This document shows, one piece after another, positions 3,919 through 46,700 of a stretch of 64,000 nucleotides of DNA (the first letter of the stretch is position 1; every line of letters starts with the position of its first letter). Below the pieces are notes generated by a model. It made no database searches and was not told where the DNA came from. It saw only the letters and a program-made list of their open reading frames with translations. A program made the position numbers and the translations under genes. Origin of the DNA: Tribonema minus (lineage: Eukaryota > Sar > Xanthophyceae > Tribonematales > Tribonemataceae); contig JAFCMP010000011.1 in assembly GCA_017506865.1 (NCBI GenBank), positions 1 through 64,000 of the forward strand, read 5' to 3'.

Positions 3919-3950
3919 GCCGCGGTGCGGCGCTCCCCTCATTCATCGTA

Positions 3951-8138: not shown

Positions 8139-8184
8139 ATTTAGTTATCGCCCGATTATCGTGTGCTCAACCCCCATGCGGTCC

Positions 8185-8222
8185 AGGACATAATATACAA
8201 CTTCACCAAAAAAAACCGTGGT
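8185..8222 (+). other. Retroelement B/C head-to-tail junction
   Basis: The copy B 3' end (…aatatacaacttcacc) is followed at once by eight A residues (8208-8215) and the copy C leader. This is the same type of junction as at 1165, so the end sequence is reproducible. At the outer edge (15136) copy C ends in the same aatatacaacttcacc but lacks an A-run. Confidence 0.78.
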
Positions 8223-8372
8223 GCAGGGGTGGATTTTGCTGGCGCCACGTTGGTGACTCCCACCCTGTGTGCCTGCTGTTCAGCCAACGCTCGGCACCCT
8301 CCACGAGGGGCAGCCGCCACCGTGTCCCAGGGGCGGGGCAGGGCCCGCCCCATTTCAACTTCAAGTCGTTTC

Positions 8373-10864
8373 ATGCCATCCGAAGCGATGGAGGTGGTGC
8401 TGCCAGCGGCGACTGGCGACACGCCAGCTGGCCCAAATGGTCGCGCGGCCACCCCTCCTGCTGCTGCTGCCTCGTGGGCGGCCAAAGCCGCCAAAACTGC
8501 GACAACACCCCGTCGCTTACAGCGAAGAGCAACCTGCTTCGGGAGGAGGCACGGCTGCTGCACGGCCACGATGGAGCCTACTTCACTCCCCGAGGCAGCT
8601 ACACGCCAACCCCAGCCCCATCCGCCCTCACTCCAGGGCAGCTAGACCAACAGGCGAGCGAGATGTTCCACGCCGCGGAACAGGAGCAGTACTTCTTTGT
8701 GCCCCCCGCTGTCGCGGCGGTGGGGCGCCAGGGTGGAGCCGCTGCGGGCCGCCTCATGGCGATGGCGGCGCGCGTGCAGGGCCGTCCGACAGCGGAGGGA
8801 CAGCCATTTGTGCCGCCGGCGGCGGCAGCCGGCACAGACCTAGTCTCGTTTACGGTGGATCCAGTCACCTGCTACACCCAGGAGCACTTGGCTGCCTTGC
8901 CGGCCAGCGTCCGCGCACTGTTAGCAGAGCTCGCGCCGGCCCGTCAGCCTCACGAGCGCGAGCGCAGCACCCCTGCGGCGGCTGCACAGCGCCGCGCCCG
9001 ACTCACGCGGGGGCGCCAGCAGCTGCTAGCGGCGGCGCTCACGCACATGCACGACGCGGCGAGGGCCGGCGCTGGAGACGCTGCCTCACTTGCGTCCTTA
9101 TTCAAGGGTGCAGAGACGCTGGGGCCTCTGTCGCCTCGTGATGACTTCCGCACGCTATGCTTGCGGGCGCCGGCCGCGCTCGTTGACGCGGCGCTCGGAA
9201 CGGTCGGCGACTCCGCTGACTTCAGCTTCAGCGGCTTCCGCCTGCGCATCACCCGCGCTGGTGACATGAGCGCCCCGGTCACGGTCACCGTGCGCGGCGC
9301 GCCGGCGGCGTGGTCTGCAGCGCAGCTTGCAATGCTGCTTGCGCCCGCACTCGCAGCTCCTGGCATGCCCATCGCGCCGGTGCGCTTGCGGGCGGGCGGC
9401 GGCGGCACTTCCGCCGCCTTTCTGCTGCTGGCCAGCGCTCTGAAGACCTGCGGCGTAGGCATTAACGGTGCGGCCTCATCCGCGGCGCCGGCGTCGGCGG
9501 CATCGCCAGGCGCCGCGGGTGTTTGGGAGCTAACAGTGGTCCGCGGCGTTGCGCGGCGACTCGCGCACTCGGTCCTATGCGCGGTGGACGGCACGGAAGT
9601 AGCGCTGCGGCTGCTGGGCCCTGACAATCTGACAGCGTGCCCGTCCTGCCTGCGACGGCACTTCACGCGCCCGGGTCAGCAGTGCCGGGCAACGCGCTGC
9701 GCGCACACCACGCTCCCCGCGGCCTGCACCACGCCAGCCGCCGCCACTGGCACAGCCGCCGGTGCCCCTGCGGTAGCCACGGCTGCAGCCGCCGCGGCGG
9801 CAGCCGCCGCGACGCAGCGTGCGCCCACCGGCGCCGCCGCCTCGCACCCCCCAGCGCCGGCGGCGACCGGCGCCGCCGCGACGGACGCTGCCGCCGCCTC
9901 GACGCCCGCGCTGGCGAGCGCGTCGCCGGGCGCCTCGCCGCCGCCGCCGGCGGCCGACGCGGACCCTGCGCAGCTGGGCCAGGAGCAGCGCATTCAGCAG
10001 CTGCAGGGGGGCATCCTGGAGGGCAGGACCGCGCGGAAGGGGCTGCAGCAGCAGGTCAAGGCACTGACAAAGCTGCTGGCAGCCTCCGAGGCGGGAAAGC
10101 GGGCTGCTGAGGCCGATCGCGACCGGTCTCTGGCAGAGCAAGTTCGTGCGGAGCGGCTGGCGGCGCAGCAACGGAGCCTGCGCGAAGGAGAGCAGGTGCG
10201 CAACGCTGCGGCGACCGCTCGACTCGAGGCGCAGCTGACAGCGGAAGCGGCGCGCGCTGCGAGCGTGGCGGTGCCGGCGGCGGACGCCGCCGGCGCGGTG
10301 GCCACCACGCCCGTGGCGGGAGACCTTGAGGCTAGCTCTGCAGCGGCTGGCGCTGCGGCGGCGGTGGCGGCGGACGGGGCAACGGCGGCGGGCGCGGCGG
10401 CGGCAGGCGCGGCGGCGGCGGGCGCGCCGCCGCCTGCTGTAGGTGCTGCCAGCGCAGCAGCGGCAGCGGCCGCAAGCGCGGCAGCGGACCTTGCGGTGGC
10501 ACTGGAGGCAGCGGCGGCGCCGCGGCAGCCGCCGCGCTCTTGCTCACGCGGGCGCTCGCGGTGTCGGCGCGCATCGTCGCCAGCGGCTCGGCACGGCAGC
10601 GACTGCAGCGCCTCCCCCTCGCGCAGTAGGCAGCCCCCCATGCCTGCCAGTGACAGCAGCGCGCTTATGTCCGACAGTGGCACACCCCGCGCCAGCCGCA
10701 AGCGCACGGCTGCTGAGCGCACGCCGGGCTCGGCGGCGGAACCCCCCGCTGCACGCCCCGCGCGCGGGCTGCCCCAAGGTCAGTCCGCCGCCGACCGCTT
10801 CCTCTCCACCTCGACGGCCCAGCCGCCGGCACCGGAGGGAGGCGGCGGCGCCTCGGGCCTGTAA
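8373..10864 (+). CDS. Retrotransposon ORF1 protein (coiled coil, zinc-knuckle-like), copy C
   Basis: Probable nucleic-acid-binding, RNP-forming ORF1 protein of the element. The frame is open from about 8267 to the TAA at 10862-10864, but no ATG occurs in it before 8663. The natural start is likely the ATG at 8373 (MPSEAMEVVLPAATGD), which lies in another frame and needs the base missing near 8505-8511 relative to copy B. Visible parts are a Cys/His cluster (CPSCLRRHF…CRATRCAH), an Ala/Pro-rich linker, a long charged coiled-coil stretch (EQRIQQLQ to about AQLTAEAA), a very Ala-rich segment and an Arg/Ser-rich basic tail. It stops 33 bases before ORF2 and in the same frame. The function is inferred from position and composition; the sequence itself matches no family I can name. 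Confidence 0.65.
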
Positions 10865-10897: not shown

Positions 10898-13800
10898 ATG
10901 ATGTCTGACTCTTATTCAGGGGGAGCCGCACCGGCGGCCATTGCGGCAGCTGCTGCTGCAGCAGCGGCTGCCGCGGCGGGCATAGACCCTACGCAGCCTG
11001 AGGCAGTGCAGGCGCCCGCTCAGCCTGCAACGGCTGCCATCTATCCGCGCTGCCCTTTATATGACACTGGCTGCCTCTTTCGGGTGCCAGTGCCCAAACC
11101 GCGCCTCCGCCGGAACGGGGAGGCGAACACGCTCACGGCGCAGACGTCGGCGTCGCTGGCGCTGGCGCGCCGCATCGCCACGACGCTGGCGGATCACCAG
11201 CGCCGCGAGCATCCGAATGTGCCTGCCGACTTTCTCGCGCGTATGCAGGCGGTCGACGATGAGTGTTTGACTCTCCACCGAGCCGGCGCGGGCACCTACT
11301 ACGCCGTGGAACCCGAGCTGCTACTCTGCGCATGCGCCTCGTGCGGCGAGCCAGGGTGCGTGCGCACGAAATTGCACCAGCGCGACCACCTGTACAAGTC
11401 CCGGGGGGCGGCCGCAACGCAGCGGCCACACGGGCCCCGCGTCGCGCCTCTGCCCCCCATCCTCTCCCTCTCTACAGCCAGCGGCGGCGCGCGCGGCCCC
11501 GGCGCCCGCGCAGCTGCCGCTGTGGCTGCGGCAGGGCCAACATGGCGCAGCGCGCTTCCGCTCTGGACGCTGGCGCCGCTCTCGCCCGCGCGCGCAGCGC
11601 TTGACGACCTCTCCTTTGACTATGTTCTGCAGCAGCAACTGGTGGTCGGCCGCTGCATTCGCCTGGAGCACCGCTCGGACTTCACAGCCGCCCTGACGGC
11701 CACGCTGGCGGGCCTCCGGGAAGCGCAGACGGCGGTAGCGCAGGCACACGGGGTTGAGGCAGCGGCACAGGCGTCCGCCACAGCCGGTGCATGGTGCAAG
11801 CTGCTGCATCTGCTGCCGTGCCTGCTGCTTGTACCCGACGGCTCCCTGCCGCGGGCGCACCGTTTTGCGGCCTTCGTGGCAGGCGACCTGGACCTGCTCA
11901 CGCGCACAGCGCTGGCCTTCTGCCGCCGCGGCGCCGCCCGTGCGGGCACGCGCCGCGCTAGGTCTATGACGGAGGCGGCGGCGGCAGTGCGGGAGCGCGC
12001 GGCGGCGACGGCGCGGCAGCCGGGCGGCGTCGGGCGCGCCGCGCGGCTGCTGGCGGAGGGTGCTGACACATCTGCCCCCCGCGACTCCGCTACCTTGCAT
12101 AAACTGCAGGCTAAACACCCAGCTGGCGATGCGTCTGCGAAGCTGGATGCCGCGGCATCGCGGGCGCGCAGCTTGGTGGCGGCGGCGGCGCTGGCGGCGC
12201 CGGCACCACTCAACTGCGCTTCATTCACGGCGGACGGGCTACGCGAGGCCATCCTCGCCGCCAACCCTGGCTCGGCCGCCGGTCCCTCTGGGCTGCGCAA
12301 CTCCCACCTCCAGCAGTGCGTCCGGCACACGGCGCACACGTCGGGGCGCACGGTTGACTGGCTCCTTGAGCTGCTGGCGTGGCTGGGTACCGCGGTGTAC
12401 TCCACCCCCGCCGCGCTGCCCGCCCCCTTTTGGCGCCTTCACGCGGCCGCGCGCCTCAGCGCTGTGGGCGAGAAGGCGCGCCCCATCGCGTGCGGCGACA
12501 CCATCCGCCGCCTGTTCGCCCGCACCTTCTGCACGGACACCCGGGACCGCGTCTCCGCGCTGCTGGAACCAATTGGCCAGTTTGGGGTCGGCGCGCGGGG
12601 GGGCGCAGAGAGAGTGGCGCTCATGGCGCAGCTCACGCATGAGTGCGGCGGCGTGCTCCTTGCCATTGACGGCAGTAATGCCTTCAACGCGCTGTCGCGC
12701 TCGGCAGTCCTCACCGCGGTGGCCGAGCATCTGCCTGGCCTGTACGGCTACGTCGAGCACATCTACGGCCCCGGCCGGGCCCCTTGGCTGCAATTTGGCC
12801 TAGATGGGCACGCCGACGCCGCCATCATCCTCTCCCAACAGGGCGTGCAGCAGGGCGACCCATTGGGGCCGCTGCTGTTCGCGCTGGCACTGCGCGGCAC
12901 CATGGTGGCTGCCCGCGCCAAGTTCCCGCAACTGGCGCTTCCGGGCTACCTCGATGACCTCACCATCATGACGCCCAGCTGTGACGCGCCGGTGCTCGGC
13001 CACGTTGGCCGCGCGTTCTGCTTCATACAACAGGCGCTGAGCGAGCTCAACATTCAGGTCAACGTCACGAAATGCGCGGCGCTGGTGCCGGCCTCAGGCG
13101 GCGCCCGCGAGCGCGCCGCCGCCGTCTTTGCCGCCGCCAATGTCCCCGTACCAGTATGTGACGACGGCATCACGCTGATGGGGGTGCCGGTCGGCACCGA
13201 GGGCTTCGTGCGCGCGCAAGTGGCGGCGACCCTTCGTGCCCCCGGCACCGACCGCCTGGTTGCGGAGCTTGTGCAGATGGAGGATGTGCAGGCTGCCTTC
13301 TCCATTCTGCGTCTTGCCGTCCCCGCCCGCGCAGGGCATGTATCGCGCAATACAGCGCCATCCCTCACGCACGAGGAGCTACGGCGCTTCGACGCCATCA
13401 CGCTAGCGGCCGTGGCCGCGCTGGCGCAGGAGCCATCGGCGGGTCTTACGCCGCCGGCCCACCAGCGCGCGCCGGCGGCGGGTGACGATTGCCGCGGCCC
13501 GCCGGCGGTTTCGGCGGCGGCGGCGCCGCCCTCTCTGTGGGCGGCGGCAGTGGCATGGGTACGCGGCGCCGACTGGGGTGGCGAGGCCCCAGTGACGCTA
13601 CCAGCACATCAGCAGGTACGCGTGCATCTGCGGCTGGGGAGTGGTGGCTTTGGCGTGCTGGGCGCGGCGCCCCGTGCATGTGCCGCATTTGCTGCACGTT
13701 CCCTCGAGTGCATGGGGCCGGCACTGGCGGCATTTCCAGTGGCGGCACGCAGCCGCGTCCTAGAGCATGCCCGCTATGGCTTCACCTTCACCCAGATAGC

Positions 13801-15064
13801 TACCTGCCTGCAGCAGCTGCGCAGCGGCAGCGATGAGGCTGCAGCGGCCCTCGCACTGCTCCTGCCCACGGTCTGGTACCAGGACTGGCGCCAGGACGAC
13901 GGCGCATGGCGGGCGCTGCGCGATCTGCTGCAACGGGCAGGCGGAGCTGCGGGGCCGGGCATGCGGACTCGCGCCGGCGCGCGCCGCGCTGCTGCGCCAG
14001 CGGTGGCGCGCGAGCCAGGCTCTGCCCAGGCCCCGCCGGCCGCCGTGCTGCCGCGGCGTCAAGCGGCGCTATCACGGGTGCTAGACGCAGCGCTCGCCGC
14101 CACGCAGCTGCGTCGGCTTGAAGCAGCAAATGCGTTGGAAGCAGTCGCGGCGTGGCGCAGCGGCGCCTCTAAGGGGGCCATGGGTTTCTTGGCGCAATTG
14201 CCGAGCACTGACCCAGCGGAGACCATGTCCCCGCCGGAATTCCGCGAGACGCTGCGGCGCCACCTGGGCGTGGAGCGCCCCGCCCCCGCTGCGGCGCGGT
14301 GCCCCAAGTGCCATAGACCAGTGGACTCGGGTGCCCACCTGCGCCGCTGCACACAAGGGCTTAACGTCACGCGACACAACTTGCTCGCAGACGCGCTCTT
14401 TCAGCTGCTCAAGCAGGTGGCCCACCTCCGCGGTCTCGACCGGGACACCCTTGCCCCCTTCCGCCGCTACGCGGCGCGCCACGGGTTCAACAAGTTCATG
14501 GACATCGTCTTTGGCAGCAACCAGGTCTGCCTTCCAGTCCCTAAAGTGCAGCCGAGCGCCGACGCGGTAGCAGCAGGCCGGTGCACTAAACTGCGCGGCG
14601 GCTTTGAAGTAGCTTGTTGCATAGACGTCACCATACGTGACAGCTCATGCCCCTCCCGCCTCCGTCAGGCTCAGGGGGGCGCGCGCGATGTGCAGCGCGT
14701 GCTTGAATCGGCTTCGCAGGAAAAGATAGACACATACGTAGTCTCAGGGGCCCTGGACCCCACTACACACACCCTATTTTCCGCAGCCTTTGACCACTTC
14801 GGCGCTATGTCACGCGACACCCAAGCGCTGCTACACGCACTCGCCGAGCAGAGCTCGCAGGGCAGCTACAATCTCGCGCAGCGCGTTGCCTTCTGGCGCC
14901 GCCGCACCTCCCTCGCGCTACAGCGCGCGCTCACACGTGTCGTGATCGACAACTGGAACGCAGTCATTGCCCCTGATGGCGACGTCAGCGCTTACCGCCG
15001 CATCGCACTGTTGCAAGTGCCGCGGCCCTCGCCGGCCAGCGCCGAACCGCCGGCTCCTCCGTAG
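10898..15064 (+). CDS. Retrotransposon ORF2: reverse transcriptase with C-terminal restriction-like endonuclease
   Basis: An intact 1388-residue polyprotein for target-primed reverse transcription. In order: a C2H2-like motif (C52, C59, H100, H105), a second Cys/His cluster (C144, C146, C149, C154, H160, H164), and reverse transcriptase from about residue 450 to 750. Within the latter are GPSGLR (~461), RPIACGDTIRRLF (~530), the first catalytic Asp in LAIDGSNAFN (~589), QQGDPLGPLLFALAL (~648) and YLDD (~684). Next comes a CX2CX8HX3C knuckle (C1135-C1151) followed by RHN. The C-terminal endonuclease core shows D1243 in CIDVTIRDS and E1275/K1276 in QEKIDTY, consistent with a PD-(D/E)XK fold. 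This layout matches R2-like elements by family knowledge. The 3' UTR ends 72 bases after the stop. The N-terminal fingers may direct target choice, which is an inference. Confidence 0.88.
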   Translation: MMSDSYSGGAAPAAIAAAAAAAAAAAAGIDPTQPEAVQAPAQPATAAIYPRCPLYDTGCLFRVPVPKPRLRRNGEANTLTAQTSASLALARRIATTLADHQRREHPNVPADFLARMQAVDDECLTLHRAGAGTYYAVEPELLLCACASCGEPGCVRTKLHQRDHLYKSRGAAATQRPHGPRVAPLPPILSLSTASGGARGPGARAAAAVAAAGPTWRSALPLWTLAPLSPARAALDDLSFDYVLQQQLVVGRCIRLEHRSDFTAALTATLAGLREAQTAVAQAHGVEAAAQASATAGAWCKLLHLLPCLLLVPDGSLPRAHRFAAFVAGDLDLLTRTALAFCRRGAARAGTRRARSMTEAAAAVRERAAATARQPGGVGRAARLLAEGADTSAPRDSATLHKLQAKHPAGDASAKLDAAASRARSLVAAAALAAPAPLNCASFTADGLREAILAANPGSAAGPSGLRNSHLQQCVRHTAHTSGRTVDWLLELLAWLGTAVYSTPAALPAPFWRLHAAARLSAVGEKARPIACGDTIRRLFARTFCTDTRDRVSALLEPIGQFGVGARGGAERVALMAQLTHECGGVLLAIDGSNAFNALSRSAVLTAVAEHLPGLYGYVEHIYGPGRAPWLQFGLDGHADAAIILSQQGVQQGDPLGPLLFALALRGTMVAARAKFPQLALPGYLDDLTIMTPSCDAPVLGHVGRAFCFIQQALSELNIQVNVTKCAALVPASGGARERAAAVFAAANVPVPVCDDGITLMGVPVGTEGFVRAQVAATLRAPGTDRLVAELVQMEDVQAAFSILRLAVPARAGHVSRNTAPSLTHEELRRFDAITLAAVAALAQEPSAGLTPPAHQRAPAAGDDCRGPPAVSAAAAPPSLWAAAVAWVRGADWGGEAPVTLPAHQQVRVHLRLGSGGFGVLGAAPRACAAFAARSLECMGPALAAFPVAARSRVLEHARYGFTFTQIATCLQQLRSGSDEAAAALALLLPTVWYQDWRQDDGAWRALRDLLQRAGGAAGPGMRTRAGARRAAAPAVAREPGSAQAPPAAVLPRRQAALSRVLDAALAATQLRRLEAANALEAVAAWRSGASKGAMGFLAQLPSTDPAETMSPPEFRETLRRHLGVERPAPAAARCPKCHRPVDSGAHLRRCTQGLNVTRHNLLADALFQLLKQVAHLRGLDRDTLAPFRRYAARHGFNKFMDIVFGSNQVCLPVPKVQPSADAVAAGRCTKLRGGFEVACCIDVTIRDSSCPSRLRQAQGGARDVQRVLESASQEKIDTYVVSGALDPTTHTLFSAAFDHFGAMSRDTQALLHALAEQSSQGSYNLAQRVAFWRRRTSLALQRALTRVVIDNWNAVIAPDGDVSAYRRIALLQVPRPSPASAEPPAPP

Positions 15065-21105: not shown

Positions 21106-22240
21106 TCAAGCAGGACATTGATGTAGGTCATGCATCATCAGCGCCAAATCAGCAGGCACTGCATGTAACACCCAGGACATTGCAGTCAAACACAGGCAAG
21201 GCAGCATTGTGATTTGTTGTGAAGGACACGGGCAATTTGAGAGCGTATGGCACAGCATGCTGCAGTGAGCAGGCCACGGCAGCACAATGCAAAGCATCAC
21301 AAGGTACACATTCATGTATGCAAAATGGTGGGGCAGAGACTGAGCCATCTGTTGCACTGCATTTTTGTCCAGCGTTGTCACATGCCCTGCGTAACCTTCT
21401 TGTCCACCAGGCTGAGCCAGGAAGGCGATACACATTTGCCATGGGCAAATGTAAGCATATGCATACTATGCAGTAGCTGCTCCAAATATGTGAGCTCGGA
21501 CAGTTCAGGGGGACATGGTTCAAGGACCATGTGATTCTGAACGCTGAAGACTGGTGGCATAACAGCAATCGATGTGCGCTGTCCGTAGGCTTTGTATGGA
21601 CTTATGCATTTGCTACAGATGAAAACTGCAGGACGAACGAAGGAGCATTCTTTGTGCATGGCTTGCTGACACTTGTCATAGGTCTCCTGTGGCCAAGCTC
21701 CATGACACACGTGGCGCCAGACTTGACTTCGTAGGAATACAAATGGTCATAGTCATGTGTCATGTCATAGAACTGCTTTGCCAACCCTAGAACATGAGGA
21801 CTCTCAAGCAAATCTGCATGTAGTGGCAGCCCATCCGGTGATCCTCCTGTAGCTGGTTGCCCGTAGAGCAACTGCATATGCGCAATTTGAGGGTCCGCAC
21901 GTGATAAATCACCAGGACTCTATGCGTCCTCGGTCTGCGAGCGGCCACTCTGGCACCATCTGCACAAAGTCGCTGCTCACGTCGCTGTGGTGTCTCTCGC
22001 GCACGAGCATCAGACTGCCTAGCCCGACGCGCAGCGAGACGATGCTCACGTTGCTCTGGTGTGTCTCGCACAGACCGCCTAGCACGGTCAACAGCAGACC
22101 GTTGCTCACGTTGCGCTGTGTTGTCTCTCGCATAGGCCGCCTAGCACGGTCAACAGCAAGCCCGTTGCCTCACGCTGCTATCGCGGTGGACACGGCCACT
22201 GTAAGCACCTCTTCGCTTGCGACCTTGCTGCTCTGATGCG
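21106..22240 (-). pseudogene. Helitron-type protein remnant (DUF6570-like region)
   Basis: Read on the minus strand, the first part has charged repeats of the type RDTPEQREHRLAARR and ARETPQRREQRL. Then comes a Cys-containing stretch (CSFVRPAVFICSKC) and PPELSELTYLEQLLHSMHM, followed in another frame by GGQEGYAGHVTTLDKN and QQMAQSLPHHFAYMNVYLV. This series matches the N-terminal part of Helitron helicase proteins, where a DUF6570 domain with PxELxxLTxxEExLI, then GGQ…GHV and LPR-type motifs, precedes the Rep/helicase region. At least one frameshift near 21430 and the absence of the Rep and helicase domains show it is a decayed 5' portion. The family match is from memory of the motif order. 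Confidence 0.6.
21960..22185 (-). repeat. ~60-bp minisatellite in the Helitron remnant
   Basis: Three imperfect tandem units (gttgctcacgttgc…tgtctctcgca…ccgcctagcacggtcaacagc). On the minus strand they code for the RxTPxQRExRL repeats. Units differ by small indels, so the repeat shifts frame between units. Confidence 0.65.
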
Positions 22241-26300: not shown

Positions 26301-29300
26301 ACCCCAGGTGTGCACCTGCTCGTCAACCTTTGATGATAACCCATTACAATGGACCTACTGACAAACAAGACCTTGCAGTCGCTTGCGTGCCGCATAAACC
26401 AACCATTCAACAACGTAAATTGAACAGTGCTTCCACAGTGTCTAAGCTGCAAGAATTCAGTGCATGGACATGCACATTGTTCAATGAAGGCCAGCTGCAC
26501 AAATACATACAACTTTCCTCAATGTGTGCCTGACCCTCTGCCGTATCAGTAGCAAATCATTTCGTGAAAATGGGGAGCCAATCGCCTGATGGGGTGAGAC
26601 CATCAACAGAGCCCCAATGCGCAGCTTCAAATGCTTGCAGAACTTGACAACCTCATCCTCTCAAGAACCCATGCATGCACACACCAAGGCGCACGCACCG
26701 TATGCCTCATCGATAAACAGTGTGCGCCCCAGCGCCTTGTTGAGCATCTCCTTCGTGCGAATGGCCGCCTGCCCCCCTGCAAACCCCGTGGTGAAATCCG
26801 CAGGCGAGCAGGATATGACTTCGTCGCTCTGAAGGACGCCCAGCTCTTTGAACATGCGCCCCATACGCCGCGCCACGGTCGTCTTGCCCTGCACAGGTTG
26901 CGCGTGAGATGCATGTCGGGTTGGTGAAGCGAATCGGCATGTTGCAGTGTTTGCGGGTAGAGCTGGGCCGCCATCAGAACTGGACAGATCATCATTTCCA
27001 GCAAGTATGGAAACGAATCAACAGAACGTAGAGGTCTAGGTGACAAGGGATGATTAGGCGCAAGTGCTTCCACCAACAACCGTGGTCGCCATTGCTGCAG
27101 TCATTGGTCACGAGTCAAACAGTGCCATCATATCCACAGTAGTCAAAATACTTCTGTGTGCAAGCCTTGTAGCATTAGAGGCATGGTGTTCAGTATGGAA
27201 ATGTTTCACGTGTTCGGTAGGCCAGCTCCAGCTGGTAGCCCAACACAGGAGGTTCAGCAGCTATCTATGCACATGGCAAGTGCACAGCCCAGCGCTTCTT
27301 ACTGCCCCAGTGAGCACTGCCGCCAACAGCAGTGCCATGGCGGTTCTTTGTGCTTGATGCCCGGGCATATACTTGCAGATGCCATCACTTGGCCATCATG
27401 CTTCAAGGTTCAGTTGTTACAGTCGTTCCGGACCATTGCGGGGGGCTGCCACATACACACATATACGTACATACATACATACATACATACGCACATACAT
27501 ACGTACAGTGCCGGGGCTGCCCGTGAACCTGAAGTTGAGGCAGACTTTGTCCAGCGGGTCGATGCCGCGACTCTTGGCCATCAGGAACACGGCACGCAGC
27601 CTCGCAAGCTCTGCAGCTGGGCCTTCGCACCCCACAAGATCGCCGAAGAGCTGCTGTGTCAGGTCAGCAGCGCTCGGCGGCTCACGGCCATACTCGGGGT
27701 CAAAGTCCGTTGCGACCTGCAAAGGCACATGATGATGGTTTTGCACGCATATATGGTCTGTACTCAATGCCAAAGTCTGTTGCGACCTACAACGGCAGGG
27801 ACAGACAAGAATGGTATCGCACGCATGGTAAACATGATTTTGTTCATGTACTCGCGGTCAAAGTCCGTTGCGACCTACAGAGGCAGGGGGGGGGGGTATA
27901 CAACAGTGGCATGCGGAAATGGGCAAGAGTGATTCGTCACCGGCTGCCCAAGCTTGGGTTCAGAGTCTGTTGCGACCTGCAAAGGCGGAGACACACGGCA
28001 ATGGCAATGCAGAAATGAGCCAGAATGGTTTTGTGACTGGCACAGCCTGTAGTCGCGGCCAAAGTCCGTTGCAACCTGCAAAGGCGTTGACACACGGCAA
28101 TGACAGTGCCGATATGAGCAGGAATGATCATGTAACCAGCAGCCCATGCTCCGGGCCAATACCTGCTGCGATCTGCAAAGGCGGAGACACATGACAATGA
28201 CAGTGCGGACATGCGCAAGACATACAATGGGGGCATGCAGCATTATAGTAGGAGCTGCCATCAGTGTCGGATGCAGTGGTTCACCAGAGAATTGCTGTAC
28301 TGTGTATCCAGTGTCAAGCTACACAATAGTAGTACTTGAACGCTCCGCAAGTTTGCAACAGTGGTACAGCATCGCAGTGCATGACCAAAGTCAGGCTGTG
28401 TGGCTGGTTGACCACTTTTCTGTATCGGCCCCAGCAGTTGTGCAGCCCATCGATGCAACACTCCACGTTCAAGTTGCAAACTCATTGACGTACACATTTG
28501 CCATAACCCAGAGAGAAACCGCAAGTGATCGGCGAAGAGTCAAGTGGCACAGTGCTATTGTGCTCAGCACATTTCAGCAGATTCAAAGACCGGCAATGGG
28601 AGCAGCAGCAGCGCATGGAGCCGAGACACAGCTGCAGAGTACGGCTGACAAGTGCCGCAGTCTAACAGCTACAGCAATCAGCCAACAAGCTAGCGCGCAC
28701 CAATGCCGCAGCATGAACTTTGTAACCTGAACCCGGTACGTCAGCTGTCCCCCTTCCTCCCCTCCCCCCCTAAACATTGCACTGTGGCTCTCCATGCAGC
28801 ACGTCAGTTTGCTCATGTAGCGATTGCCCCAACAAGTCAAGCAACAGAGGCTTCACGCACACTCACCAGCTCGGTGTCCGTTCTGTGAACTAATTTGCCC
28901 ACCGTTTGGATCGTTCTAATAATAAAACACGATTGCCATCAAGAAACATACTTGCAAACGCTGTGTGCAGTGTGCGTTGGCTCAATGATCGCCCAAACAA
29001 GTCAAGCAGCAAAGGCAGCATGCCCACTCACCAGCTCTGTGCACATTCTGTGTACCGATTTGCTCACCGCATCGCGCATTAAACGCCATGCGCGCACTCA
29101 CCAGCTCTGTGTCCATTCTGTGTGCAAATGATACGACACACTGCTATCGAACACATTAGAGCACAGGCTTTGTTCTATGTCCATTTGCTCGCTGATTGCC
29201 CAAACAAGAAAAACAACATTGACCGTGCGCGCACTCACCAGCTCTGTGTCCATTCTGTGTACTGATTTAATCACTGCACCATGTATCATTTGTGCACCGC

Positions 29301-32300
29301 ATCGCGCGTCAAGGCATATTACACACTCACCAGTTCTGTGTCCATTCTGGCGGCGGCACTGTCATCCCGCCTGCGCCCCTCCTTGCGCACCTTGGCCTCT
29401 CGCAGCAGGTTATCCACCTCACCGCCATTGCCAAAGTGCGTTGCCACATCGCGGCGCCGCGCGAGCACTGCCACCGCTGCCAGACGCGCCTCCACCTGGC
29501 ACAGGTCACACCAAGTTCACCGAGGTCCATCGAAGTTCACATCGGCGTACGCAAAGCTCTGCGATGATGGCAATTGTTCATGACTGGTACAGACCAGAAG
29601 GCATCGAACACAAGACAACATGCACTGCAACACACACCATGTAGAAGTATGCCTTGTCTCTGTATCTTTGTATGTGCAGATCTTTTGACCATGCTCTCTG
29701 TGAACTGAGGCATAAGTGCAGATTAGCATGTACCTTTGCAGTACACAGCTTTGCATTGTGTCTCGCCCTCAACATAACCGCATAAAGTGTGCATGCACGA
29801 GTGGGATGTGCAGCAGGCTGTAACAATATACCAACATACCCCCCACCTTTGCGGTGAGGTGCTCCTTGCGCATCTTCAAGTCCAGTATCTCCAGCAGCTC
29901 CTCATCCGTATAGTCTGCAAAGTTGAAGGCGTCATTCAGGGCAAAGCGCCTCTCCAGCCCAGGGTTGTTGCTTTTCAGCATGCGCTCCATGTCTTCGCGA
30001 TACCCAAGCATCAGCACAGCGCGGTCCTCGCCAGGAACGTTCTGGATCTGTGGAAGGTTGCCAAATCGTTGTGCAGTTACCGCGCGTCAGGCACGCGACG
30101 TGTGTTGAGGTGTGGTGCTGTGCGTGCCAACGTACATTACGCTCTTTGGTGCTGTTTACACACGTTTGTACATCCATCGTTTGAATTACTGCGCAAACAG
30201 CAGCACACCAAAGCAGAAGCTTCAGGAGGTGTAGTGCAATTTGCAAAGGACACATTTGCCTACATTCCATTGAAGTTGCACTGGCAGAGGGGGCAGGGAG
30301 CTTGTGCAATGTGGCGCTTGGCTGACATAGGTGTCAATAACACGGGGGGGTATACTCAAGGGGGAGTCTTGCGGCGAAAAGGGTTGCAATTTGCCTCTTC
30401 ACATCCGAAGCAATCATTGTGAAGAAAGCTCACCATGCTGATTTATACAATTTGATGCATTCGTCTATATGGTGCTTACTGATGCAAGGCCGCTTGAGCC
30501 AGTCATACCTGCATGGCTTTGATTGCCCACCTACTTGTGTGCAGCAGACAAACCAGCGCTGTTTGGGCGTCCACTCACTGTTCAATGGCTCAATATGTGC
30601 AACCTTGGGACCCCAACGACCACCCTCTCAAGTACTTGACACCATTTTTTGCTCATCACCGCGTCAGTGACATGGAAGTTCAACATTGACGTTTCCCGCG
30701 CTTCCACTGCACTGTGACAACACCCAAGTTTGCCTGCCACCGCCCGCGCAACTCATCCATACCTTGAATATCTGCTATATGGCTATTCTCTTTCGTATTC
30801 TAGGACAATAATCACTCAAAATACGTGTCAGCGCCCACATTGCATACCTGCTCGACCAGAGTGTCAATGACGCCGGCGTGGTACGGATCGCTGCCGCCGC
30901 GCACCCCCCCCCCACCGCCCCCCCCGCCCGCCCCTGCATGCAGCCCGTAAGCCTCGTCAATGACACACACACTGCCCTTGGCGGCCTGCAGTATGGACCG
31001 CGTTTTTGTCTCCGATTCCCCTAATACGGAACCGATGAAGTCGCTTGCGGTTTTGGTGTGCGCTTCGCCCTTGGAGAGGAGGCCCAGGTCGCGAAGAATG
31101 CGCGCGTAGAGACGCGCAACTGTTGTCTTGCCCGTACCTGTAGGAGCATCAAGGGGCAGGTGTGTCACGGCTGTGGATTTCTGTCTGATGATGATCAGCG
31201 GGTTGGGGTAGGCATGAGTGCGTAATGTGTGTAGGGGGTGAGCTACGGAGGCAGGGCTACTGTGGCAGAGGGAGGGGGAGTCGCACTCATGCAAACCGTA
31301 ACCATTGCCCTAATACACACTGGCATTGTGCCATTGCGTGCATGCCATCAATGTTAGGCGATGGTCTAGCATTGGAAGCGGTGTGACTTAGCTCCAAGGC
31401 CCACTATGGCATTTGTTGTGATGCTTTTGGCGAATCCACCATTGTATGCAGAAGACAGTGTGAGCCAACCCACCCCAACAGGTAGGTATGCGACAGTAGT
31501 ACTTTCATTTCAAACATACCCTATACCCCTCATGCCTAGTGCAATATGTACCTGGCAAGTTTTTTCCGCAAACAGGTTGCTGCTGGGCGATTCCTTGAAT
31601 GCGGTTGCACACAAACTTCAATATCAACACATTTGGTCCCAAAACATCAACAATGTTCTAAGCAAGCACCACAGTTCATCACAACGGTCCTTTGCCTTGA
31701 CTGGATCAACACATCTATGCGGCCAGATTCATGTGCTGTAGCTATGACTTCCTTCTCAACAAGAATTGGCGCAGATCTATCACATCATAAGCTGAGCACA
31801 AACTTGAAGATTGCCCGCAATGCACTGCACCTGGGTTCCCCAGAAACAGTTTGTTGAGAGAAACGGGCCGCAGCGGGCGGCCCTCTAACTCCAGTGCCGC
31901 ATTGGTCTTCACAAGCTCCGCCAGGTTGAGGATGGAGCGCTTCACGCTCTCCAGGCCCACCAAACCTGCAAGCGGCAATGCGCAGCGAACTTGTCAATCA
32001 ACTTTGTGGTTGCCATTGTATACAGGCAGCTCGATTTGTATTGAGTGCACCTCAAAAGCTCTTGTGAATATGCAACATCGCCTTGATCAGGTTATGCGGC
32101 TGCTGGGTGATCGACCCTGGTTAGTTGCCCACTGCTGGGGCACCTGATGGTCTGAATACTAGCGTGACCCCTATTTGCGCGCAGCCAAAGGCATGTGAGC
32201 AATAGGGTGTTGCATGATTAGCCTTAATTATCAACATCATATTTCAAGGTATTGCGCAAGGCGTAACATTCATAGCCGGTACTAAGCCTGACTTGTTGAA

Positions 32301-35300
32301 GTTCGTGAGAGCTGCCACTTGATGCTTGCTGCCGCTTCACCACATCAAGCATGATACATACAATGTTTAAACATGGTCTGCTGATCCTCCTATCAGAATG
32401 AACCCACTATTTGCTCAACTGTGATGCACGTGTAATCAGGCCCATCGTTGACTGGTGTTTTCAAAACAAGACTCTCAAATGCGCAGAAGTATGTGCGCTT
32501 ATGCACAAATCACCATTAGGTCAATGTTGTTGGTTCACACTCAATGGGCCGCCCGTATTCACTCAATTGACAATGGCTACCTATACCTACTTACACTGCA
32601 GCTTCTGCCACGCCGCTGACTTGCTCAGATCAGGCACAGCCTCGCCAAGCAGATCTGATCGCTCTATGATGTAGGGGTCAGCGTCATGGTTGTGCTTGAG
32701 GCGCATTGTCTGGCGTTGCATTGTCTGCAGCACAGAGAATCAAGCAGTCAAATCAAGTCAGATGAAGGTTGCAAGTAGGGCAGGTTGTGACTTTTACAAA
32801 GTGAGGTGGGCACTGGTGAGAGGTAAATTGACAATGGCAGATAGGCGCAAGGTCGTTACCAGGTTTCATGTTGCGAGCAGACCCTAGAGTAGATGCCACC
32901 TTGTCACAGAGACTGCACACATAAGCAAACAACAGCCAATAAAATCTGCACACAATCCTGTCACCGCAGCCATTTGACAATGACGAGCCGACTCCCTTGA
33001 TAGCCAAATGCAATTTAAAAAACAGCACAGTCTGACTCAGACTCTGACTCACATACCCGTCACCAATCACGCAGCCCACCTACCTTGTCAAACAGGATGT
33101 GCAGGCGCGCGCGTTCGCGCAGCATTCACTCAGACTCTGACTCACATACCTGTAACCAATCATGCAGCCTACCTACCTACCTTGTCAAACAGGATGAGCA
33201 CGGCGCGCGCATTCGCAAACCCCCTCGCCCCCCTCCTCCGCCCCAGCCGCGCAATGGCCACCCTGGCCCACCTATCCCCCTGCTCCTTCCCCGTGTCAGG
33301 GTGGGGACCGGGCTCAAATTGCAGGGGGCGCGTCCCCCTTTTCCCAGCTACCAGCCCCTTAAAGATGGCCAGTAGCTGCGCATCGGAGTAGTCTTCAAAG
33401 GTGAGGGTCTCTGGGAAACGGCTGGGGAGTCCCCTCGTTTTGTTCGAAGAGCTTCTCCATGTCTTTGTGGTAGCCGGCGAGGGCGACAGCGAGGGTGTCG
33501 CGGCGGTTGTCCATCTCTGTCAGCAGATAGTTGAGCACCTGTCGCACGCAAAGATCGGAGCAAGCGACACACTATGTTGAAAAACGTCATATTTTTCTTC
33601 CAAAAGAGTATTCTGAAGATGTGAAATGCAATCTTGTAGCCAAGGTCTGGTAGAGTTGGCCTCCGAACATGGAGTTGCTGATAAAGAGCTTCTCCATGTC
33701 TTTGTGGTAGCCGGCAAGCGCGACGACGCGCGTGTCGCGGCGGTTGTCCATCTCCGTCAGCAGGTAGTTGAGCACCTGCCGCACAGATCGGAGAGTAAGC
33801 GACACAATAGCTTGAAAAGCGCCATATTTCGTTAACAGAATAGTGTTTGAAGGTGGACACGGTAGCTTACAGTGCCATATTTTACTTACAAGATAGTATT
33901 GAAGGTAGGCTTTGCAATCTTGTGGTCAAGGTCTGATAGAGCTGGCCTTCACACGTGGTGCTGATAGAGTGGGTGGTTTTCCGCTGCTGTCAGCAGGGCA
34001 ACCAACACTGCACCCTAGAGACTGTTGTGCATGAGGAGATGGTGCATGCCGGCGTGCCTTAAGTGAACTCAAGGCCAACGCATTGATATGATTGCTATTG
34101 AGCGCTGCTGAGAAGGGGCGCGGGCCGGGGGCGCTTCGCGTTGTTCACAGTCAGCGCTAGCACGTTGTGTACAGTCAGCGCTGGCACGTGAGCCATATAC
34201 ATACCATCAGCACCATATTGCCCCGTGTGAATAGATCACACTACAATTTGTGCAGTGCCTCACCCAGGCAGCGGTGCAAGCGTGTATATGCGCTTGAATG
34301 TGAAAGGCCTTATGTACAGCACAAGTGCTACAAAAGTGTGCTCGAGTGGACACACCTTTCAAGTATACCAGCATGTCACACTCTACAAACCAGACACTTC
34401 TACAGAAAGCAAGAAGCTACATGCTGACCTGCTTGCCCTGCCCCCCCACCCCAGCAGAGAGCAGTGCGTACGCCTCGTCAATAACGAGCACGCCACCATT
34501 GTCCTCTTTCAGAGTGTCCAGCTGCGACTTCAGCAGCGCAATGCCTTGGTCTGCCAAATCTGCCCCTGACGTCTCCACTATGCCGGTGCCGTAGTTCCTG
34601 AAGATTCTCAGGTCCTGTAGCAGGCGCGCATAGAGGCGCGCAACTGTAGTCTTTCCGCTGCCTGCCAGGACAGAGTGGGATTTCATGAAGTGAGTTAGCA
34701 AAGAAACAGCAGAATGACCATCACGTGCACTAGGTATTAACTATGTTTGCATCGATGCAAGAAGTACACGTCAAGTTGGAGGTGGGCTGCGCACCCAGCT
34801 AGACGCGCATACTACGGTGATACATGCATTTGCATATAGTTTAAGCCCATATGCGCACATGAGGACTTGAAGCAGAGTGCATTAGCAGGCGACAGCACTT
34901 CCATGTAGCATCTGGGTCCTTGAGTCCGACTGTCTAACGTGTGACTTTTTGGGTACTAGATGATCATCTGAAGGCGCATCGCTTGAATGAGCATGCACTC
35001 GTGCTTCAGTGCGGGCGCAGCTGGTCCAGTATTGCGGGGCGCACATGAAGAAGACAAGTGAGTCTGTGAGTATCTGCGCCCCCTTTTGTGCTACCTTTTG
35101 TGCGAATGGTTTAGTGGGTGCGGCAGCGACTCAACGGGCGTGAAAGGGGATTGTTGTCGGTCCGAGCTGCAAATCGACTTGCCCAAACATGTTCTGCTGC
35201 CAGGGTCCCCTTGTCGGGTGCACAAGCATTACGTAGCTGCAGCGTCAAGTGGACGCCTCTCTGGTTCAAGCGCTTCAATTAGCAATACGGGACGGGGGAC

Positions 35301-39959: not shown

Positions 39960-42900
39960 GGCGCCAGTAGTGGCTCTCACCCAAAAAGATCTGGTTTTTA
40001 TTCGCCTTGACCCCCGGTTTTTTGGGGGTTTTGCACAAACGCGGTTATAGGCGCGCAGAGTCGGGTACGAGAGATTCCTCGGCCGGGGTAATCTTTAAGC
40101 GATCTCTGCCAGGGCTGCAAGCCCCATGTGCCACCTTGGGCCACGTTGGTTTGCTGATTGCTGCATGTCAGCCTTCCATTGAGACGCGTGACCTGCAAGC
40201 CCAAACCATCGCCTGCCCCCTCCCCTGTGCCCCCTGTTGGTGTTTAATTTTTTGCTCCATCAGGTGCCAAAACTGCTGAACACTTTGACCTCAAGAGACC
40301 AAAATTTACCTCTTGTGCAGGAGTTGTATACATAGCTGCCGAAGAAGCAGAAGATGAGAGATTTCAAGCATCACTGCGCAGTGTCTGCGCTCCTGAATGT
40401 GTGGCACACGCTGAGCCTAAACTTCTAAGTGCAACCTGGCTGCAGCTAAGAACCAGATAGCGCTATAGAGCCAGGAGCTTAGGAGATCAAAACCCACACG
40501 CTCCTTCAGTTTATTGCCGCCTGCTCCCTCAGAGTATCACCACAAAAGCTGTAATCGCACTGCAAATAAACCCGTATGATCATAGCATACATGTGGCGAG
40601 CAGCCATGCTGGTGCGTGTAGGACAGTCTGGGTCCAAGGCGTTGGGAAATGGTGCATTTAAAGTTTCAGCATGCAGCTTGCGTCTCTCGACGCTTTGATA
40701 ACCCGTATGATCATAGCATACATGTAGCGAGCAGTCATGCTGGCGCGTGTTGGACAGTCTGGGTCCAAGGCGTTGGGAAATGGTGCATTTGAAGTCTCAG
40801 CATGCAGCTTGCGTCTCTCGATGCTTTGATAATCAATAAACTCTATTTATTGAGTGTAATGGCGGCACACGCAGTTTGCAACATTTCAGAGATGACAAAC
40901 CACGCAAACGCCAACAGCAGAGGCAGTCATACACCAGGAACATAGCATACAATCTCAGATGGAACGCCATTTCCATTTTGAAGCTCATCATGTCAGTTTC
41001 CCCACCAAGGTGCATGGTAAACGTGCCATCAACAAAGCTGCATCGCACTGCTGCATGTGTTCTGGCTGCAAGCACACACCGAATTTTTGGACTGTCTTGG
41101 CACCTTCATGAATGCGAGTCAGATGCAAATGTTGCAAAGTCGGATCCCACCTTCACATGCTTGGATGTGAACGGCATGCGGAGAGTGCGCATGACCACAA
41201 TCACCAGGCGCACACTGGCATTCGAACGAGATTGTGAAGAACGTGTAAACACTCTCCATGAGCCACCGATGAGAACAGACGCACAGTCCGCTCCTTTCCC
41301 TCAGGGCTAGGTGACAAGCTGTCCTTGCATATTGGCTTTGGAGCCCCTTTTTGTTGCCATGTACTTGGAAGTACCACACATGGCCTCCGCACCAAGTTGG
41401 GCACATATTGCAACACAATGCAGCCTCGAGCACCATTTGCTTCACAGTTGCAGTGTGTACACCTTGCCGTGCTTGTAGACATCGATGGTAGTGCGCACTT
41501 CAGGAGCTGTATAGGTGACTACTGGTCCCCGCGCTGTTTCTCTCCCGTCGCCGCTGGAAGCCCCCAGCATTAGCCCCGGACCCCCCTCCACCTCGAAAGA
41601 ATGCTGGTCATGCCTGAAGAGTTTGCTGTTTGCTGCGGCAATTTCCAGCTGCCAGCATGCTGTTCACTGTGAACAGCGCGCTGCCACGTGCGTCCTCGCA
41701 CCTGCCATTTATTGATGGCTCACAAGAAATCATGTCTTCATGGCCAGCCAACCACTCGAATCTCTGACGGCAGCAGCATCTATATCCAGCAGGCACACCG
41801 CCAGAAGGGGTGCAGGCAGACAGGCGACTGGCACAAACATTGCATATCGCGTTGGAGCGTTTTGTCTGAGCGGCTTTTCGAATTGTTCACAGCTGCATGC
41901 TGTGCCTTCTGCTGCGGTCAAGGAACACTTCGGTGCAGCCACAAAAGCGCATTAGTGTTGGCTACAACCAGCAAGTCCCGACATGACGCATCACTGATTC
42001 GGCACCAGTGATGTGTGTGACTTCGATGGCATCTACAAGCCAGCTGAGGGTCTCATTGATCAGCATTGATCATGATCCCGACGTCTTGGCAAGCTGCGCA
42101 TCTTGAGTGCAGGGGCCCATACCTGAAGTACGATGGCCGTGGCATACATACAGCCCCCCCCACTTTCCAAGAGTATGCTGCAGCTTCACCTCAGCGAATC
42201 GCGACCCTGCATCGCACCGCAGTGTGTAGTCATGGCACATGGAGTGGGTAGAAGCCTTGCAAGTCCATGTGCATACACAGTGTACACCACTCGCTCAGAA
42301 GGGCCATTTTTAACTTCAACAGGTAACCTCAACTTTGAAGTAGTGAACTTTCAGGTTTTTGGAAAGTCCCAGAAAAATCGCCGGTGCCAATTGCAAGGCC
42401 CATCACACGACCTGGCGAGTGGGCGTTCATACAACGTGACTGTCTCGGTGGGCTCGACCAAGCAAACGCAAACCGAAGGCGCTTCATCTTGTCAGCAGAG
42501 GGCGCCGACACACTGCCCGTCGACGAGCGAAAGCACTGTTTTGGGAACCAGGTTCTCGTTGCTGGTGAGGGCAGCAGGGTCTTTAGAGAGCAGCTGGTGA
42601 GCAGGAGCATCGCAGGTGTCTAACCGACGTGCGAGATGCGAGCCGGCGCGCAATGACACGCACTGGCGGCGGACAGCAGCTGTCAACACAAGCGCAATTG
42701 ACATTGGGACGCGCTCTCTGAGCAAAACAAGCGCACAGCCCGCGCTTTTCGGCGCGTGCAAGCCATGGTGCTGCAGTCCATTCTTCGGATGAGGGCGTCA
42801 GTTCTTCTCTTCGCGCTTGGCCTGCTGGGATGTTCGTGGTAAGTCTTGCAGCTGCCTCGCACGCACACTCTGCGGCAATCAAAATCGTTGCAGTGTGCCA

Positions 42901-43738: not shown

Positions 43739-46700
43739 ATGGTGCAGCGGCAGCACGAACAACCGGTGGAGCAGCCATTGGAAAAATCGCTGGCAGCAGC
43801 GCTCGAGGCGAGAGGCCTGAATCCAGCAACGGCGCACTCTATGCTGCCCGCAAGGGGAGGCAGGAATGGCGCAAGCAGTGATGAGTGGCTGCAGGGGGAG
43901 GGGGTTACGCAGGGGAAGCTGCCGCGCAGGCAGCAAAAGAGTGGGGTGCGGGCGCCGCGCATTGGGAATACGCAGGGGGGCGAGGGGCGATTAGGCGGGG
44001 ATGCGGCACAGGTGACACCTTGAGTTAATGAATTAAGTAATTCATGAACGCTTAGAGCACAGCATGTAAGTGAATTTATGTGGAGATGATGTAGAACTTT
44101 AGAATACTGCTGACATGCACAGCACCCGCATTGAGCTGTAGCAGTTCCTGGCACTTCACACCTGCGCTCTTGCATAAGTGGCATTTACTGTGTGACATCA
44201 GTTACACGTCAGCATTGGTCACTATCGATTGGTGTGCCGTGCTGGCACCGCATTTATGAGCACGGCTGCTGTGCGCACATATGTACATACATACCTTCTG
44301 ACTTTGATTAGTCAGGACAACGTTTTATAGCACCACACATATAATGACCAGGCCAATCAGGCCATCGCTGTGAGGTGCAGTGGAGCTTCTTGAGTACCGC
44401 CTTTACACAAACAGCAGCAGGCAATGTTGAAGTTGAATACCCTGAAGCTGAAGCAGTTGCACAATCATTGTGACTTCAAATTTCATAGCGTGCTACATCC
44501 GTGACAGACGCAACGCACTGGGGCCAAGATGTTCCGTAATCATGTCATGCTGACAGGTGTATTTTGATCTAAAAAGCAAGTTCTCTGCACGGCAAGATGA
44601 CCATCAGCTAGTGGCTTGTTGTGGCAGTAGATGTGCTGGGCGTCTCGAGCTGTGACTTTGGCGTGGTCTATGCGGTGTGTGAGCCATAACTCACAATAGC
44701 CATCAGTATTGCATGGGAGTAGACCATACGACAGGCACCGGAGTCGACTGCTGATAACTATGATGCGTACTAGTATACATGTAGTCAGCTTGTTGTGTTG
44801 TCAGCAAAATTGAGGTCATTTCGCCTTGTCGTTAGAAGTTGCTATGTGAGTGAGCTGTCAGCGCATGACTGACTGTGCACCTGTGAGGCAATGTCATGTA
44901 TACAGGGCAGTCAAGCAGAAATGCACACAGCAGTTGTAATAATGTTAGCTTTAATGCCCCACTTATACCTCAAGCGCTCCTAGTGAAGCCAAACTTCGCC
45001 ACGCATGTACTTTGAAGTGTATAGGGGGTGTGAGAAGGAGTGAACGCCTGTTGGTGTACTACCAGCTCACTTGTGGCCTAAGCGGAGACTTGACGGCTTT
45101 GCCAGGGCTCAAAGCTTTGCATGTAATTTGCAACGTGTATAATGTCGATCGAGCATTTGAAGCGCTAGCAATATGGCCAAAAAAGACGGGGTGGCTACTG
45201 CAATTTCACGTGCTATCACGTTACTTCAATTGACACAGGCACCGCATCCGTGACACATGCATGACCTGCTACGTCAAGTGCATGGTGCATGACCTGCTAC
45301 TTCAAGTGCATGGTGCGTCACCTGTCTATGCAATAAGTCAGCATAGCCTACAGCAGTTTTCGCCTGTGCGCGCTCGCGTTGAACCTGACAATACACACGT
45401 GGATCAGGCACTGAGGTGCAAAGATTTTGTGGCTGACACTCCAAATGTACTTGAACTTTGAACACATCTTGATATTAGCATCACTGTTGTTCAATGAATA
45501 AATACTGCAGTGCACTGGACGTCAATCTGTGCGTGTGATCATGACAAATGTCAACCTGCGTCGCCTGTGGTGAACAGGGGGATCAGGGGGGCGTGGGTGG
45601 CGAAAGAGGGCTGCAGCGGGGGTTTCCAAGGGATGCCTTGGAACGCAACAGGATTCGCGAGGAGATAATGGCGGTGCGTACATACGTTGTGCAATGTATG
45701 CGAAGGCATGCTGCAAGACACTACGAAACAAAGATGTTACAGCGCGGGTTTCCAAGGGATGTCTGCGAACGTAAGAGGATTCGCGTTGAGATCATGGCGG
45801 TACGTACATGCGTTGTGCAATATACGGCAAGGCATGCTGCGATGCACTATGAAACAAAGAGTCGTACTTGGAAGAAGGTTGCAGTGACACGAACACACGC
45901 GTTCTCGACAGAGTAATTTTCGGTGATACTGAAAGCATGTACTCTGCTGCTCACAATCATTGAATGCAGGCTGTATTTTTGGGCATATGTGCCATGCCGT
46001 GGCATCTCAGCACCATTGTGGTGCAAGGCGACCAGTGTAAAGCATGTCGACAACGCAGCGGTTTGAGATTAGGGTTAGGGTTAGGGTTGCTTGGACACCT
46101 CATCCTGAACTTCCTGGGACCTGCTGTTATTGCGAGTCAGGGTAGTGGGTTGTTGGCTTGAACATCTCATCTTGCACCTCTGAGACCTGCGGTCATCGCG
46201 AGTCGCAGGCACCTGTTTGGGTTTCGAGGGCCCTGATGAGCTGCTGGTGCAACTGGACTTGTTGAAGTAAAGCATACGCTTACGGTTTTACTTGGACCAG
46301 TGCATTTCAACCCCAGCTCCACTCCAGCTGCGCATACACGTTCTTGCTTTGTGCTACCATACACACAATGAAGTATTGCTTGGTGGCCACGAGTTGCCAT
46401 CACTACTTCTTCAAGTGCATTGCAACCCTTACTTCAACTAACGCTGCACTCATCGTGCTCTGCCTCTGCATCACCATAAGCAGCAGCAACAGCCGCTGCA
46501 GCCGCAGGGTAAGGCATTGACCCCTGCGCAGCTCGAGAGGCCCATACTCCTCAACTTCTCAAAGGCAAGTGGTGTTCACCATGCGTATGCGCTCTCTCCG
46601 TTGCCAAGCCATTCGCAGAGCTCAGTCACACAAAAAAAGCAGCGGCAATCGCCAATTTTGCCATTGTCAGTGGTTCTTGTTTGAGTAAGGGGCCTTTGGC

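Follow-up and report, generated by a model that had tools for sequence, protein, structure and literature searches.

An intron of a gene for an AAA+ protein in the alga Tribonema minus, located in the 64-kb stretch of DNA analysed here (the window; contig JAFCMP010000011.1, positions 1 to 64,000), is nearly three times as long as its counterpart in a close paralog, apparently through the copying of its own two borders. Lengthening of introns is usually attributed to transposons and random insertion. Here we find copies of the donor edge at one end of the intron and copies of the acceptor edge at the other, and the copies probably arose by ordinary tandem duplication, which would be tolerated when the spare junction is intronic and would remain recognisable through selection on the working junction. 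A 314-kb sample of the same genome contains dozens of similar arrays at varied divergence, and intron growth, spare splice sites and the choice among near-identical sites can be tested in this single organism.

Junction copies at both ends of one intron

The gene lies on the minus strand, and the 1614-bp intron (29330-27717) separates the two coding exons listed in Table 1. An earlier note on this DNA had described five copies of the donor edge and six copies of the acceptor edge in this intron, mostly with plausible splice signals, and our alignments bear this out, both counts including the working junction. All five donor copies read CTG/GTGAGT and AG is present in all six acceptor copies; splice signals are therefore retained in 11 of 11 full copies, and a single remnant of the donor edge, AATGGACATAGAAC at 29185-29172 of the minus strand (read by eye), has lost its GT. 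The four extra donor copies adjoin the donor and carry approximately the last 20 exon bases together with GTGAGT, and the five extra acceptor copies adjoin the acceptor and carry the end of the intron with approximately the first 16-26 exon bases. Donor copies are spaced by 165, 70, 137 and 92 bp, and acceptor copies by 70, 88, 102, 99 and 97 bp. Identity to the reference copy is 63-97% over 38-56 nt, so that 3-37% of sites differ. When scored with a splice matrix trained on the same genome, all five donors give 5.17 (median of predicted donors, 4.8) and the six acceptors give 5.0-7.0 (median of predicted acceptors, 5.06). As judged by eye, the sequence 3' of the donor copies is of one kind for d1 and d3 and of another for d2, d4 and d5, a pattern that duplication of a block already holding two copies would produce.

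Only one of the 30 possible donor/acceptor pairings, that of the outermost sites, keeps the reading frame open. Each inner donor leads to a stop at the 59th codon, counting from 29495, and the working donor joined to any inner acceptor runs into a stop no later than the 122nd codon. Joining the outermost sites gives a product that matches PF00004 (AAA) above the cut-off and, with the upstream exon, also AAA_lid_6, although the latter match is below the curated cut-off. Because the other 29 pairings all meet a stop, the suggestion that the copies form a bank of alternative splice sites finds no support as far as protein variants are concerned.

Table 1. Features of the AAA+ gene and its junction copies in window coordinates; the junction column gives the end of each donor-edge copy or the start of each acceptor-edge copy.
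Feature	Position	Strand	Junction	Basis or remark
Upstream coding exon (VEARLAAV...ARMDTEL)	29331..29495	-		Open frame, splice sites; paralog exon C542 293569-293395
Donor-edge copy d1, working junction	29315..29352	-	29331	Repeat family D4, alignment
Donor-edge copy d2, CTG/GTGAGT	29223..29260	-	29239	Repeat family, alignment
Decayed donor-edge remnant without GT	29172..29185	-		Read by eye
Donor-edge copy d3, CTG/GTGAGT	29086..29123	-	29102	Repeat family, alignment
Donor-edge copy d4, CTG/GTGAGT	29016..29053	-	29032	Repeat family, alignment
Donor-edge copy d5, CTG/GTGAGT	28851..28888	-	28867	Repeat family, alignment
Intron middle outside both arrays, ~600 bp	28221..28821	-		No array pair; about the length of the whole paralog intron
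Acceptor-edge copy a1	28144..28199	-	28172	Exon-like part from 28172; repeat family D1, alignment
Acceptor-edge copy a2	28047..28102	-	28075	Repeat family, alignment
Acceptor-edge copy a3	27948..28003	-	27976	Repeat family, alignment
Acceptor-edge copy a4 (TAG)	27846..27901	-	27874	Repeat family, alignment
Acceptor-edge copy a5 (TAG)	27758..27813	-	27786	Repeat family, alignment
Acceptor-edge copy a6, working junction	27688..27743	-	27716	Repeat family, alignment
Downstream coding exon (VATDFDPEY...TGSPGT)	27507..27716	-		Runs into AAA domain; open frame; paralog exon C542 292808-292593
Second donor-border duplication	33035..33216	-	33177	Working donor after 33177; a single further copy, offset by 93 bp, 88% identity
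Second acceptor-border duplication	33447..33829	-	33538	Working acceptor 33538; a further copy upstream, offset by 237 bp, 86% identity

The homologous intron of a close paralog

A close paralog on contig C542, with exon stretches 70-86% identical to those of the window gene and both flanking exons alignable, has a homologous intron of only 596 bp. The difference of 1018 bp is close to the total of approximately 1013 bp spanned by the two arrays (27717-28220 and 28822-29330). No alignment was obtained between the remaining intron sequence of the two genes, and the length match is therefore suggestive rather than proof of base-by-base descent. Nevertheless, we infer a gain in the window gene rather than a loss in the paralog, and the earlier proposal of growth by junction duplication finds support in this intron.

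We searched the own intron of each of 38 junctions, from 11 introns of the window gene and eight of the paralog (whose first compared intron was left out because its acceptor is unclear), using queries of 45+45 nt. Extra copies are present at six junctions and number 13, nine of them in the 1614-bp intron, while the same queries match other introns in only one of 652 control searches, which excludes chance as their source. In the window gene the junctions are the 29331 donor (four copies), the 27716 acceptor (five), the 33177 donor (one) and the 33538 acceptor (one), and in the paralog they are the acceptors at 293566 and 290676 (one each). At the search threshold none of the six has copies in both genes: the donor copy of the 33177 type was not found at the homologous paralog junction, and the counterpart of the second acceptor-border duplication in the paralog is a single contiguous exon copy. 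Border duplication in this gene pair thus looks recent and repeated.

The paralog has a 131 bp duplication of its own (C542:293824-293497, 85% identical) over a different acceptor, which was not found in the window gene. Two adjacent introns of the window gene (25893-25178 and 24995-24668, minus strand) are absent from the paralog, where the exons are fused, reflecting either loss there or gain in the window gene. By eye, exon 33538-33177 (minus strand) shows an apparent reading-frame slip relative to the paralog, whether real or an assembly error. In addition, 32724-32594 (minus strand), flanked by plausible splice sites as judged by eye, is likely to be a coding exon missed by the gene finder; blastn gave no match to it in the compared paralog region.

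Arrays at exon borders in a 314-kb sample

The survey combined the window with 250 kb more, giving 314 kb on five sampled contigs. Exon borders were predicted by a simple gene finder trained on the same 314 kb, using confident exons only, and arrays were defined as direct repeats at offsets of 25-2000 bp with at least 35 unmasked bases, pairs that consist largely of short-period repeats being discarded. By these criteria there are 76 tandem-duplication arrays (24 per 100 kb), present in all five contigs. With the looser exon filter, 33 of the 76 span a predicted border, compared to 14.9 when the shifts are block-wide (33 reached in 0 of 400 trials) and 16.8-21.6 when they are local, at 500-4000 bp (0 of 300 at each of four ranges). 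The stricter filter gives 26 border arrays against 12.9-17.8 expected, a count attained in no more than 2 of 300 trials. The border share of border plus intron arrays is 0.51 (null, 0.28-0.34); 32 of the 76 lie wholly inside predicted introns, and only three are confined to exons (4.7-8.2 under local shifts). The earlier note had held that a genome-wide lack of enrichment of intronic repeats at exon borders would speak against its proposal; in these 314 kb the overlap exceeds the local-shift expectation.

At 44 predicted junctions struck by arrays, the spare copy lies on the intron side only in 32 cases, on the exon side only in seven and on both sides in five. The gene finder seems to have erred in at least two of the exon-side cases, since alignment to the paralog makes 33553-33179 one exon with the copy upstream of it. 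Coverage by arrays is 0.13-0.18 between 50 bp on the exon side of a border and 200 bp on its intron side, falling to 0.06-0.09 beyond 300 bp; the profile has one hump at the border itself and another 100-175 bp inside the intron. The donor array of the 1614-bp intron was missed mechanically as a border array, its matches stopping short of the working copy, and was added by hand only in the comparison of spare-copy cores and GT/AG and in the intron-length and two-ended counts below.

Among the other tandem duplications of the window, that at 40569-40832 (131 bp, 95% identical) is off predicted borders and is a young member of the same class. Those at 45614-45860 (plus strand) and 21968-22178 (minus strand), with offsets of 126 and 69 bp, were not counted as border arrays, although by eye both seem to include splice-like sites.

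Divergence and persistence of border arrays

Across 37 junction pairs, the exonic parts of the copies are more alike than the intronic parts: 1148/1318 (0.87) versus 1408/1941 (0.73) positions are identical at donors, and 1106/1327 (0.83) versus 964/1262 (0.76) at acceptors. Exonic divergence is thus 0.5-0.7 times intronic divergence, as expected if selection holds the working copy and only the spare drifts, and a border pair held in this way would be detectable for longer. Consistent with this, the border excess is found mostly among old arrays: those below 80% identity comprise 19 border and 10 intron cases, whereas those at 80% or above comprise 14 and 22, which is near the null (p = 0.13-0.32; Fisher p = 0.046 for the split, which omits 11 of the 76 arrays, eight outside predicted genes and three exonic). 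The ten arrays at 90% identity or above divide equally, five and five, and are too few to tell. In a survival simulation, from which units with more than one junction were left out and in which units were capped at 400 bp, the odds of lying at a border rose 1.2-1.6 fold under the strongest constraint tried and approximately 1.0-1.4 fold under weaker constraint. As the sole explanation of the border excess, survival bias was rejected, the simulation accounting for only part of it.

Origin of the junction copies

In the account that we consider probable, short tandem duplications with a spacing of 70-165 bp would have straddled both exon borders repeatedly, each depositing a spare junction inside the intron and so enlarging it. 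Because the protein would be unchanged as long as the outermost donor and acceptor are the sites used in RNA, border duplications would be tolerated whereas those within exons mostly would not. Unequal exchange or slippage between copies may later have multiplied the spare junctions, presumably as neutral sequence, and selection on the working junction, by fixing one member of each pair, would allow border duplications to outlast intronic ones in recognisable form. This offers a simple, if partial, reason for the gathering of repeats at borders.

Several observations weigh against this account or narrow it. The observed rise in border odds, approximately 2.0-2.6 fold, is above that simulated, and part of the excess may reflect a mutational preference for borders. 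Within the 1614-bp intron, 25-nt cores compared between spare copies are better kept than their flanks, both at donors (138/150 identical versus 206/348) and at acceptors (196/250 versus 380/658), which simple neutrality does not predict; the three donor pairs with like flanks give 67/75 versus 125/174 (p = 0.003, the pairs not being independent). The better-kept cores could stem from the constrained edge copy having served repeatedly as the source of new copies, or from weak selection on inner sites. By eye, the homologous acceptor of the paralog may have one faint acceptor-like copy approximately 100 bp upstream, below the search threshold, and the first acceptor duplication may for this reason be older than the paralog split. 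Furthermore, the gene finder mis-called at least one exon, and one contig (C1) has four arrays, none at a border, the border arrays falling in the other four contigs. Finally, median intron length is 490 bp without a border array (n=89), 947 bp with one (n=13) and 823 bp with two (n=6), but the greater length of those with arrays is not significant among the 108 examined (p = 0.50), so that large net growth is shown for the intron described here rather than for the genome as a whole. Of the 74994 bases in these 108 introns, 8350 (11%) fall within arrays; the arrays thus contribute only modestly to intron length in the sample, and growth has good support in this one intron.

The roughly two-fold excess of border arrays over local shifts and the shortfall of the survival simulation would also be explained by duplication targeted to borders, through transcription- or splicing-coupled breakage or template switching at exon-intron junctions. 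Arrays at both ends occur in six of 108 introns (1.4 expected, p = 0.0006), of which the 1614-bp intron is one only through its hand-added donor array. Three of the six, however, are introns of 79-299 bp inside exon duplications, for which reason two-ended introns, though nominally enriched, were set aside as a class. Given also that 14 of 36 arrays with 80% identity or more lie at borders, which is the null value or close to it, and that so many arrays are wholly intronic, we regard targeting as unlikely. The same doubt attaches to its fuller form, in which border-aimed duplication would extend introns at each end in a ratchet, the spliceosome reliably choosing the outermost among as many as eleven sites of similar strength. 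A dedicated mechanism centred on borders is not established: duplications are common throughout the sample, and survival fits part of the excess. Less probable still is that selection keeps the inner sites as decoys whose stop-bearing, unproductive transcripts tune gene output. All 11 sites retain their signals and score as predicted working sites do, which agrees with this idea, as do the better-kept cores and the fact that spare copies, counted in arrays with no more than one junction, keep GT/AG at 119/128 positions while exon positions are kept at 1742/2014 (p = 0.04). A weak excess of this kind is to be expected, however, where full constraint acts on the working copy alone; in border pairs GT/AG is kept at 68/74 positions against a neutral expectation of approximately 64 (hand calculation), and in the paralog intron donor copies are absent and acceptor copies number one faint example at most. 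Selection on inner GT/AG was rejected as a weak and confounded signal.

Introners are present in some algae, and a reverse transcriptase domain (PF00078) lies in the window at 10901-14608, but insertion of introners or other mobile elements is a very improbable source of the repeats. The copies carry the exon edges of the AAA+ gene itself, the control searches of other introns gave a single match, and the region matches only itself in the 158 Mb genome (554 contigs), dispersed similar copies not being found in a search that skips very common words. Tandem repeats are liable to mis-assembly, yet an assembly artefact is equally hard to credit: the divergence among the copies shows that they are not assembly stutter of identical units, and arrays of the same class occur in all five contigs, with border arrays in four.

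Other features of the window and genome

The reverse transcriptase domain (2e-8) falls in a long open stretch on the plus strand, and a predicted gene upstream (2217-10864) holds similar pieces by eye, which suggests two neighbouring retroelement copies. In a genome search the chlorophyll-binding family gave 92 matches and the small RuBisCO subunit family gave none, which may point to a red-derived rather than a green plastid, although an intron-split gene could be missed in such a search.

Comparison with known systems

The arrays resemble the 'mirages' of amphioxus, boundary-spanning tandem duplications described for the BflGb6 and BflGb9 globin, Adh3, troponin C and PGBD5 genes (PMC3087553, PMC3902484). 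According to the accessible portions of these accounts, mirages duplicate either the 5' or the 3' boundary in units of 10-160 bp, AG or GT is present in many but not all copies, and normal splicing is reportedly undisturbed, with RT-PCR support for use of the authentic border; the BflGb6 mirage has six and three copies in two haplotypes (PMC3087553, PMC3902484). The Tribonema copies likewise span the exon-intron boundary in tandem, at a spacing in the minisatellite range, and largely keep their splice signals. They differ from mirages, which are known from an animal, in being algal and in occupying both borders of one intron (5 + 6 copies), an arrangement that those portions do not mention. 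Moreover, the 314 kb sampled here contain many border arrays, and our case is known from DNA sequence alone whereas mirages are backed by RT-PCR.

In the potato RdRp gene, tandem duplication over an intron-exon boundary reportedly created a new intron (PMC4974935). There, as here, a short duplication across the boundary supplies splice signals; here, however, it lengthens an existing intron, and the presence of an intron at the same place in the C542 paralog does not fit intron gain by tandem duplication. Tandem repeats were more numerous towards the ends of introns in a survey covering plants and algae, notably in the green algae Chlamydomonas and Volvox (PMC3887541). Unlike the copies described here, those repeats are short motifs such as di-, tri- and hexanucleotides, and that article, in its accessible part, makes no mention of exon-edge copies that span a border (PMC3887541). 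No such border duplication in an alga is reported among the titles and abstract openings listed from the open-licence literature. The intron described here is thus of the mirage kind and extends it from amphioxus to a distant lineage; what is new is the algal case, the occurrence of arrays at both ends of one intron, the control provided by a paralog and a partial survey of the genome.

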